DNA of 64,000 nt from assembly GCA_004348925.1 (NCBI GenBank), contig RCMX01000006.1:553443-617442 (forward strand). Reading direction: 5' to 3'. Under the pieces are notes generated by a model. That model was not told the DNA's origin, searched no databases, and was given only the letters and a program-made list of their open reading frames with translations. Positions 20,949 to 26,894 of the stretch are shown piece after piece (within the stretch, counting starts at the first letter, position 1; the number at the start of each line of letters is the position of its first letter). The position numbers and the translations under genes were made by a program. Origin of the DNA: Actinomycetota bacterium (GTDB lineage: Bacteria > Actinomycetota > Coriobacteriia > Anaerosomatales > Anaerosomataceae).

Positions 20949-21000
20949 GGGATCCTCCGTTCGGGGCGTCCGAGAACACACCCGGACGATAAGCCTGGTG

Positions 21001-21030
21001 ATTATACTGACACCCCACTGCGGGTGTCAA
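21001..21030 (-). promoter_or_regulatory. rpmH operon promoter with embedded inverted repeat
   Basis: On the minus strand TTGACA (21030-21025) and TATAAT (21006-21001) are perfect hexamers separated by 18 bases, about 50 bases before rpmH. An 8-bp perfect inverted repeat, TGACACCC-CACTGC-GGGTGTCA (21008-21029), fills the spacer and covers most of the -35, where a bound protein would block RNA polymerase. Confidence 0.85.
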
Positions 21031-21117
21031 TGAAGTCTGCGCCAGGTTAGGCCGTTGCGAGTTTCCGCAGCCGATCCCTCACTTTCCTTGTTGCGGTCGA
21101 CAAAATACTCAGGAAAT

Positions 21118-21126
21118 TGTGGATAG
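21118..21126 (-). other. DnaA box, near-consensus
   Basis: TGTGGATAG; one mismatch to the perfect box TGTGGATAA (TTATCCACA on the other strand). It abuts a weaker variant, TGTGGAAAA, at 21127-21135. Confidence 0.75.
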
Positions 21127-21159
21127 TGTGGAAAACCCAGGATTCACGACTGTCGAACC

Positions 21160-21168
21160 TGTGGATAA
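21160..21168 (-). other. DnaA box, perfect
   Basis: TGTGGATAA, the exact complement of the consensus TTATCCACA. It is the only perfect copy seen in the rpmH-dnaA interval. Confidence 0.9.
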
Positions 21169-21502
21169 CCCTCCAGCGCTCGTTGTTCACCGACTACCCC
21201 TCTGTTAGAATCGGCGCTGTTTCCACAGGCCGCGCATTATGGAAGTTCACCTTGAAAATGACCTGGTAGAGGCCTATTGGTGGCCTTTGGCTAATCTTGG
21301 TATACGGACATGTGTTCGGTTTTCCACAACTTCTTTCACGTATGTGTCTTCCGTTGATGACACTGTCCACAGAATCCACTGGAAGGAAGCGATCCGCACT
21401 GTCTCTGGAAGGGTTCCAAGACGCCGAATAGCCGTCAACCTGGGCTTCTAGTGGATTCAGGCGAGTGATCGACGCGAGATTCTCCACAGATGTGGAAAGT
21501 CT

Positions 21503-21511
21503 TGTGGACAA
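21503..21511 (-). other. DnaA box, TTGTCCACA type
   Basis: TGTGGACAA, complement of TTGTCCACA, a form common in high-GC actinobacterial origins. It is close to two weaker boxes at 21480-21499. Confidence 0.75.
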
Positions 21512-21570
21512 CTCGCAAAGCAGCAGGTAGATGGGTTTCAGGGGATGTGGCTACAGTTTCGGTGGAGTGT

Positions 21571-21579
21571 TGTGGATAC
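21571..21579 (-). other. DnaA box, near-consensus
   Basis: TGTGGATAC; one mismatch to the consensus. It lies about 80 bases before the GHKL-ATPase gene start. Confidence 0.7.
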
Positions 21580-21659
21580 GGCTTCTAGCTGCACGTTAAT
21601 GATGAAGGTAGCGCTGGTGTTGTGTTGATAAGTCTGTGGAGCGAGAGGGGGGGACCGGA

Positions 21660-22502
21660 ATGAAGTCGTTCTTCGATGGCAATGTGTCTGTGACGAACAG
21701 TGGTCCCCCGGAGGCCATCGGGCCAGTGGAACGCAGGCTTTCCGAGACGCCTTCCCTTGCTCCAACGGACAGGGCATCAGCTGCCCGGGTAGCGATCTAT
21801 GATTCTCTCACCGCTTCGCCCCGTGTGGAGGATGTGACCGGCGCGGACGCTCGCGCGTTTGTCGAAGCACTCTCTTCTCGCGCGTACCAACTTTCCCATG
21901 AGTGTGGTGGATCGCTCCCGTATATGGTCATCCGTGAGGTCGTTGAGAATCTGATTCACGCCCACTTCGCGGAGGTGGTCGTCACCATCTTAGATAACGG
22001 GAACACCATTCGGTTCGCGGACCAAGGGCCGGGTATTCCTGACAAGGAGCGAGTATTCGTTCCGGGCTTCTCGACCGCGACACACGAAATGAAGACAGTC
22101 ATCAAAGGTGTCGGTTCCGGGCTTCCTGTGGCTCGCGAGTGTCTTACCTTCTCGAGCGGCACGATCACAATCGAGGACAACCTCGGCCGAGGTTGCGTCG
22201 TGACGATTCACGTCGATCCGGATCCTGTGGTCTGCGATGACCCAGCCGATACACCCCGGGTCCATGCAAGCACACATGCCCCTCGTTTGACATTGCGCCA
22301 AAAACAGGTGCTCTCTTTGGTGCTCGAGATGGGCTCAGTGGGACCATCCGTGGTCTCCAAGGAGCTTGGTGTTGGTCTCTCTACCGCATACCGGGACCTT
22401 GCGTCCCTTGAGGATTGTGGATTGATCATCTCCGATGAGAACGGCAAGCGGGTTCTTGCTCCTTTGGGGGCCGACTCGCTTGATTCGCTCTTCAACAACT
22501 GA
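21660..22502 (+). CDS. GHKL ATPase fused to a winged-helix DNA-binding domain, origin-linked
   Basis: 280 residues, function not known to me. Residues about 60-190 form a histidine-kinase-type ATP-binding fold: an N-box region [12 protein letters not shown], a G1 box DQGPGIPD, a lid region and a G2 box [12 protein letters not shown]. There is no phosphoacceptor histidine domain. Residues about 218-275 form a winged helix: [19 protein letters not shown], then [25 protein letters not shown]. The protein could therefore sense ATP or a partner kinase-style and bind DNA. It sits between the DnaA boxes and dnaA, 14 bases upstream of dnaA, so it is probably cotranscribed with it. ATG 21660 is preceded by a long G-run Shine-Dalgarno. 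Candidate roles (dnaA or origin regulator, anti-sigma-like factor) are inference. Confidence 0.8.
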
Positions 22503-22516
22503 TCCGGGGGACAGAC

Positions 22517-23899
22517 GTGCAAGATGTGCAAGAACTATGGGATGAAACTCTTGCGGTAGTTCGCAACGAGCTGAACACACCCACGTTCAAGACGTGGTTC
22601 GAGAACACCTCACCGCTTGGGGTTGTCGATGAGACGCTAATCATCGCCGTCCAGAACGAATTCGCCAGGGATTGGCTTGAGTCACGTTACTCCGGGCTTC
22701 TCTCTTCGGCACTGGCTCAGGTTCTTGGTCACCCGATGAGCGTCGCTTTCGAGGTGCCCGCAGATGGAGCGTCTACAACTGCAGCGGCGAGCGCTCCTGT
22801 GGAACCTTTGGGGATGCCGGATCTGGAAGAGGTAGAACAGAAACGCGTCAAAGAGGCGACGGATGGAGAATTCAACCCGAAGTACACCTTCGACTCCTTC
22901 GTGATGGGTACGTCGAACCAGTTCGCCTACCATGCAGCTCTTGCTGTCGCTGAGACTCCAGGCGGAGCATATAACCCTCTCTTCATCTACGGCGGCGTAG
23001 GACTCGGGAAGACGCACCTGTTGCAGTCGATCGGTCACTACGTGAAGACGAGTTTTCCTCACATGCGCGTGAAGTATGTATCAACCGAACAGTTTACAAA
23101 CGACTTCATCAACTCGATCGGCAACCGCGATAAGAGCCGTATCGAAGGATTCCGGCGCCAGTATCGGACGAACGACGTCCTACTCGTGGATGATATTCAG
23201 TTCCTTGCCGGAAAAGAGGGCACCCAGGAGGAGTTCTTCCACACGTTCAACACCCTTCAGCAGGCCGGCAAGCAGATCGTTCTGTCATCCGATCGCCCAC
23301 CAAAAGACATCGGAAGCATCGAGGATAGGTTGCGCAGCCGGTTCGAGATGGGGCTCATAACCGATATCCAACCACCGGAGCTTGAGACCCGTATAGCGAT
23401 TCTCAGGCGCAAGGTGGAGGCGGAGAATCTCACGGTTCCGCCAGATGTACTCACCTTCATCGCTGATCGAATCTCATCAAACATCAGAGAGCTTGAAGGT
23501 GCGCTGATCCGTATCGTGGCTTTCAGTTCGCTCACCAGGCACGTAATCGATACGGACCTCGCTCGGAGCGTCTTGAAAGACATCTTCCCAGAGCGATCAA
23601 TCAAGCCGATCGCCATCAACACGATTCAACAAGAGGTGTGCAAGTTCTACAGCATCAGTAAGAACGACCTCGTTGGAAACAAGCGATCTCAAGCCATCGT
23701 GTATCCCCGACAAGTGGCCATGTATCTCGCGCGCGAACTAACAGATATGTCCTTGCCGAGAATCGGAGCAGAATTCGGTGGTCGGGACCACACGACTGTG
23801 ATGCATGCAACCGCCAAGATCACGAAGCTCCTTAATGCTCAGCGTGAAGTGTTCACTCAGGTCCAAACACTCACTAACCTAGTCAAACAACGGAACTAA
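22517..23899 (+). CDS. dnaA: chromosomal replication initiator DnaA
   Basis: 460 residues. Domain I (about 1-85) starts with [13 protein letters not shown] and contains [10 protein letters not shown] short linker (domain II) is followed by the AAA+ domain III with Walker [10 protein letters not shown], Walker [15 protein letters not shown], and sensor motifs. Domain IV ends with the DNA-binding signature [12 protein letters not shown]. DnaA opens oriC and loads the helicase; it also acts as a transcription factor. The GTG start at 22517 follows GGGGGACAG. DnaA-box clusters lie on both sides (20.9-21.7 kb and 23.9-24.1 kb). Confidence 0.98.
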
Positions 23900-26333: not shown

Positions 26334-26894
26334 ATGAGACGCCGTAAGCTCGACAGCATCGGAGACATCACCGATGCCGTCATTAGGCGGGCGGACCCCA
26401 AGAAACGCCGGTACGCGGCCAGAGTGGCATTGGTATGGGAACAGATAGCCGGCCCTGAAGTAGCCCAGCACACCGTCGCGGCCTCAGTTCGCGAAGGTGA
26501 GTTCGTGGTGAGTGTCGATTCCGCCGCCTGGGCGCATCAGCTTGACCTCATGAAGGACCGCTATCTGGCAAGTATTCGTTCAGAGATAGGTGAGGGTGTG
26601 GTCAAGACCATACGATTCACTGTCTCGAAGCAGGTCGAACGATCACGCTCGATTGAACATGAGGCAGCAAAGGTCTCAGAGTTCTATCAGCAAGAAGCCA
26701 CACCATCGATCCCCCTCAGTGAGAGTGAGCGACTACAAGCCGAGTACATCGCGGACGCCGTGAAAGATAACCACCTACGAGAGGCGGCTCTCAGGGTGAT
26801 GATCAAGGATCTTGAGTGGAAAAAGGGTGTTCGTGCCAACAGCGAGCCGCACGCGCCTTCTGATGGCGCGACAGGGGACAATTCGAGCCTCTAA
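26334..26894 (+). CDS. DUF721 protein, DciA-like (candidate helicase loader)
   Basis: 186 residues. The N-terminal half is a DUF721/DciA domain: VALVWEQIAGPEVAQHTVAAS is followed by a strand-rich part with SAAWAHQLDLMKDRYL. The C-terminal half is a charged helical extension. DciA proteins are the ancestral loaders of the DnaB helicase in bacteria without DnaC/DnaI, and the recF-DUF721-gyrB order is typical of Actinomycetota. It starts four bases after recF, so it is in the dnaN-recF unit. The loader role here is by family, not shown. Confidence 0.82.
   Translation: MRRRKLDSIGDITDAVIRRADPKKRRYAARVALVWEQIAGPEVAQHTVAASVREGEFVVSVDSAAWAHQLDLMKDRYLASIRSEIGEGVVKTIRFTVSKQVERSRSIEHEAAKVSEFYQQEATPSIPLSESERLQAEYIADAVKDNHLREAALRVMIKDLEWKKGVRANSEPHAPSDGATGDNSSL

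Follow-up and report, generated by a model that had tools for sequence, protein, structure and literature searches.

A GHKL ATPase–winged-helix gene linked to dnaA across Actinomycetota, a candidate regulator of dnaA or oriC

In bacteria, dnaA is the master gene for replicating the chromosome, and its control, like that of oriC, is understood well for just a handful of model species. Soj, YabA, SirA, SeqA, Hda, MtrA and AdpA would share with the protein described here a role in acting on DnaA, dnaA or oriC, and none of them is known to be a GHKL protein. A likeness of another kind, in domain order, comes from the solved structure 3lmm (DIP2311), which we take to be a protein of the COG2865 type with AlbA_2, GHKL-like and winged-helix (wHTH) parts.

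We analysed 64,000 nucleotides of an Actinomycetota genome (the window), in which a gene joining a GHKL ATPase domain to a wHTH stands directly upstream of dnaA. Nothing on such a gene was found in the open-access literature (most subscription journals and all preprints lie outside this scope), nor is it described in passages of PMC4255298. With moderate confidence, we read the protein as a dedicated DNA-binding regulator of dnaA/oriC that shares an operon with dnaA and whose hold on DNA would be set by the ATP state of its GHKL domain.

A GHKL domain joined to a winged helix

The GHKL-wHTH gene (21660..22502, forward strand) starts with ATG, encodes 280 residues and has orthologues at dnaA; an in-frame GTG lies upstream of the ATG (21660), at 21636. 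Its stop precedes the GTG of dnaA (22517..23899, forward strand) by 14 nt, and judging from this gap the two genes are probably co-transcribed in the same operon. Against the gene of one relative (L038), dN is 0.092 and dS is 1.16; the open-reading frame is a real gene under purifying selection and is also conserved across the phylum. In Pfam, residues 88-187 match HATPase_c (PF02518, E=1.9e-13) and residues 212-265 match a TrmB-type wHTH (E=3.5e-6), both exceeding the curated cut-offs, and no DHp/phosphoacceptor histidine domain is matched at E<=1, which bears out the first-pass annotation's description of a kinase-type ATP-binding fold, lacking a phosphoacceptor domain, joined to a winged helix. 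The GHKL domain (Bergerat fold), N-terminal beta hairpin included, is encoded at 21774..22229 on the forward strand, with N-box E93/N97, G1 box D121-x-G-x-G125 and G2 box G150-x-G-x-G154, and the C-terminal, MarR/CggR-like winged helix (residues about 212-280) at 22293..22499 on the same strand; upstream of the CA domain, predicted models place a weakly ordered tail and a short hairpin-helix. Across an alignment of 22 hand-chosen, diverse family members, HATPase_c was matched by all 22 and an IclR-type HTH model by 17. Some class families (L049, L050, L052, L053, L057) carry a Pro/Gln/Tyr/Ala-rich linker of ~100-250 residues between the two domains.

In PADLOC and PHROGs, matches are limited to either the wHTH or the HATPase part. 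We rejected a mobile-element origin, as searches of plasmids and phages at 1e-5 gave no match; a single weak match to a fragment of a viral contig (32% over 65 residues) was disregarded as evidence of this kind. An N-terminal aromatic peptide, considered as a partner motif, was dropped when two loose patterns fitted only 43 of 103 sequences.

The ATP pocket looks intact, and the protein would be expected to bind ATP: N97, H100, D121, G123, G125, G150, G152 and G154 are identical in all 103 distinct sequences, a set picked with the family profile and so mildly biased towards conservation. Loss of ATP-binding residues in most homologues, which the first-pass annotation had named as evidence against its reading, is therefore not what the family exhibits. 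The recognition-helix region is less conserved, with R245 present in 91 of 103. The glutamate E93, which precedes N97 by four residues, is retained in 102 of 103; an E-to-N spacing of four is that of the general base in GyrB, MutL, SpoIIAB and PDK, and the protein may therefore turn over ATP or act as a kinase. This spacing, the tight pairing with dnaA itself and the presence of BCKDK and SpoIIAB among the structural matches (below) would also fit an action on DnaA protein rather than on dnaA transcription, with DnaA modified or sequestered by a GHKL kinase or nucleotide-gated binder that the wHTH only tethers near the origin; GHKL residues alone, however, cannot separate a kinase from an ATPase or a binder, DnaA is a putative substrate, and we regard this alternative as unlikely.

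In fold comparison with a model of the whole protein (pLDDT only 65.6), the wHTH filled the match list, and for this reason we modelled the GHKL part by itself and searched with that model (mean pLDDT 84; 63 to 70 in the other four models of the run). Its closest solved structure is 3lmm (Z 14.3, 148 of 152 residues, 2.9 Å), followed at Z about 10 by SpoIIAB, histidine kinases and BCKDK. When the sequence profile was compared with the PDB, 3lmm was absent from the best 60 matches, which include sporulation kinase B, CheA and MutL. The wHTH model aligns with MarR and CggR domains at Z about 12 (1.4-2.4 Å over 70-75 residues). SpoIIAB 1l0o is the second-best structure for the GHKL part (Z 10.4, 127 aligned, 3.4 Å) and one of the 22 family members matches HATPase_c_2 (E 0.0086), as might be expected of an anti-sigma or partner-switch kinase of the SpoIIAB-RsbW kind controlling a sigma factor. 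We consider such a role very unlikely: the CA domains of histidine kinases score equally well, PF02518 is matched by all 22 members, and no sigma or anti-anti-sigma gene occurs among the window open-reading frames read around dnaA (related loci were searched for GHKL, dnaA, dnaN, recF and rnpA only).

Linkage to dnaA and distribution

The linkage to dnaA is phylum-deep and survives rearrangement. In all 30 of the best class matches (L001, L009-L037), the gene is preceded by a divergent rnpA and followed by dnaA on its own strand. Among 80 further class genomes, chosen from about 120 listed, the gene is directly upstream of dnaA on the same strand in 77 (73 pairs on one contig and 4 split by the start of a circular record); in two of the other three it is flipped but adjacent to dnaA, and in one the two genes are on separate contigs. 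Loci L063-L108 come from within the class and beyond it, and dnaA is next wherever the available DNA is long enough; in L084, L094 and L102 the sequence stops at a record or contig end. The synteny search proposed with the first-pass annotation thus returned GHKL-wHTH genes beside dnaA in class and phylum alike, and homologues stay at dnaA, instead of spreading away from it as would have counted against a role there.

In several genera the GHKL gene and dnaA have been inverted together with respect to dnaN-recF. We picked 37 genomes, mostly from one family, to look for this inversion, and 29 gave coordinates for all three genes: dnaN is opposite to dnaA in 18 of the 29, and the GHKL-wHTH gene lies on the dnaA strand in all 18. 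Loci L145, L149-L151 and L164 show the pair inverted relative to both dnaN-recF and rnpA, with the usual dnaA-dnaN order broken. Two loci, L161 (4566-8314) and L162 (5471-8359), have the GHKL gene alone flipped and divergent from dnaA, with 1-2 DnaA-box-like sites in the gap between them; divergent placement of this sort is common for local regulators. Protein distances of GHKL-wHTH and DnaA correlate over 77 loci (r 0.71, permutation maximum 0.24), as would be expected for joint descent.

At E<=1e-6, 347 of 396 class genomes match the protein. Six of these matches are weak (G141, G188, G300, G342, G349 and G384; E 1.5e-9 to 3.1e-7), and of the two inspected, the frame in L061 reads as an ordinary sensor kinase and L062 has no family-profile match; all six were counted as negatives, giving 341 positives and 55 negatives, and all 55 were searched for dnaA (22 + 33). 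No dnaA match was obtained in 42 of the 55 assemblies, which are uninformative, many of them rated >90% complete, and it seems that such assemblies often lack the origin region. In three more (G093, G143, G384), dnaA lies at the edge of a contig or close to it, and in the remaining ten (G059, G129, G008, G011, G020, G137, G029, G161, G226, G329) rnpA and dnaA are present and the GHKL-wHTH gene is absent. A draw of 396 genomes across the phylum gave 157 matches at 1e-12, spanning 21 families outside the class, too wide a reach for the lineage-specific system that had been suggested. Among 20 listed non-matching phylum genomes dnaA was found in 19, and the gene is absent at all 15 of these 19 dnaA loci that were examined. 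Because the ten class genomes and these phylum loci have dnaA without it, the gene is dispensable on evolutionary scales. An exact-peptide scan across all species gave eight loci, all labelled actinobacteria; it registers exact peptides only and does not imply absence elsewhere.

The control region and a proposed mechanism

Eight DnaA-box-like sites (<=1 mismatch) cluster at 21118..21631, and the cluster is conserved in relatives. Counted at <=1 mismatch to TTATCCACA, there are eight sites in 20970-21659 (shuffles: mean 0.12, maximum 2), none in the GHKL-wHTH gene, none in the gap plus dnaA and one in dnaA-dnaN. GC skew passes from negative to positive near 20-21 kb, and rnpA lies, divergent, beyond the box-bearing upstream stretch. 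The cluster is likely the origin and/or the dnaA control region. The gene had been placed between the DnaA boxes and dnaA, 14 bases upstream of the latter, and this is correct; it had also been called embedded in oriC, which is right in that it stands between cluster and dnaA, but the gene itself has no box at this threshold. In family f40 (L093, L095), 17-18 DnaA-box-like sites occur in the dnaA-dnaN gap, against 0-6 in the other loci counted, and the main box cluster there seems to lie downstream of dnaA. Further along the window, downstream of recF, the open-reading frame at 26334-26894 presumably encodes a protein resembling the DUF721/DciA type.

Within the upstream region, a promoter-like TTGTTC-17-TAGAAT (21183..21211, forward strand), conserved in relatives and absent from the consensus-scan list, is followed by a conserved ACCTTGAAAA-N3-CCTGGTA element (21249..21268, forward strand), which in relatives lies 45-47 nt after TAGAAT. 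This arrangement, TTGTT-17-TAGAATCGGC and then, at the near-fixed 45-47 nt, ACCTTGAAAA-N3-CCTG, recurs at most order-level dnaA loci (window 21183-21268), and the ACCTTGAAAA element at that spacing is almost confined to the order. We searched for operators as conserved k-mers in the upstream regions of 30 loci, which yielded the rpmH-side promoter (a perfect TTGACA-18-TATAAT on the minus strand), the TAGAATC promoter and the CCTTGAAAA element. This third candidate was rejected as an operator, its spacing being almost order-only: promoter and ACCTTGAAAA element are also present in L114 (3288-3412) and L135 (4801-4925), and because both of these loci lack the GHKL-wHTH gene, the conserved element is no evidence of an operator. 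This footprint and k-mer search of the upstream regions found no operator that tracks the gene. The promoter and ACCTTGAAAA arrangement is possibly a leader or origin element. Hairpins seen by eye 5' of the element had suggested a structured leader RNA, which was rejected when RNAalifold gave no consensus pair in 23 sequences; Rfam had no match near the ACCTTGAAAA element and two chance-level matches elsewhere.

With no operator found at dnaA, the protein might be a transcription regulator of other genes that is merely located in the dnaA operon, and distant genes are indeed often controlled by MarR/TrmB-like wHTH domains. However, rearrangement breaks the linkage to rnpA and dnaN but leaves that to dnaA in place, and among the loci examined we saw no homologue at a distance from dnaA; we judge this explanation distinctly unlikely. 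A regulator of dnaA/oriC itself, the reading we prefer, is favoured by the family-wide presence of both domains, the dnaA linkage, the inversion as a unit, the adjacency kept in L161 and L162, the invariant ATP-site residues, the distances that track DnaA and the MarR/CggR-like wHTH; we count against it the lack of an operator, the genomes without the gene and the less conserved recognition helix. Under this preferred reading, the winged helix would bind DNA, its most likely target being the control region, rich in DnaA boxes, that immediately precedes the GHKL-wHTH gene, and the GHKL domain would bind ATP, with opening or closing of its lid and a change in dimer state. The nucleotide state may then set whether and how the protein holds DNA or meets DnaA, and dnaA expression or origin firing could follow that state or a partner; any effect on replication, in either direction, is putative. 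A bolder version, which we advance only tentatively, is an ancient Actinomycetota replication switch: at the origin, the GHKL protein would either respond to ATP/ADP or clamp DNA as an ATP-driven dimer, and would gate DnaA directly; it would be a new mechanistic class of initiation regulator, lost or replaced elsewhere in the phylum.

Persisting beside dnaA across the depth of the phylum, despite rearrangement of the block, the gene points to an overlooked regulator in a group that includes Coriobacteriia. GHKL-wHTH also offers a testable handle on how the start of replication may be tied to energy state.

Comparison with known systems

The first-pass annotation had set the architecture apart from known initiation regulators, and here one correction applies, since the order of the modules has a precedent: SLFN_AlbA_2/HATPase_c_4/wHTH proteins carry a GHKL-like domain and then a wHTH, as the window protein does, and a collinear profile match to proteins of this type runs through both domains (probability 78.7, E 1.7e-5). 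Relatives' proteins of that kind match SLFN_AlbA_2 (PF04326) and HATPase_c_4 (PF13749), whereas the window protein matches neither at E<=1, for which reason we do not file it as a member; PF13749 has no match in the window's own genome at 1e-5. The window family, in contrast, keeps the canonical DxGxG and GxGxG motifs and is single copy at dnaA. With the CA domain of sensor histidine kinases the protein shares HATPase_c sequence and fold, but it has a wHTH in place of a phosphoacceptor or sensor domain. The SpoIIAB/RsbW anti-sigma kinases resemble it in GHKL fold (Z 10.4, a value that histidine kinases share), unlike it in that the window protein has a wHTH and sits at dnaA. MarR, TrmB and CggR regulators share the wHTH fold with recognition helix and wing, and where they have a ligand part the window protein has a GHKL domain; it is unusual for a GHKL ATPase and a DNA-binding domain of the one-component kind to be combined in this way.
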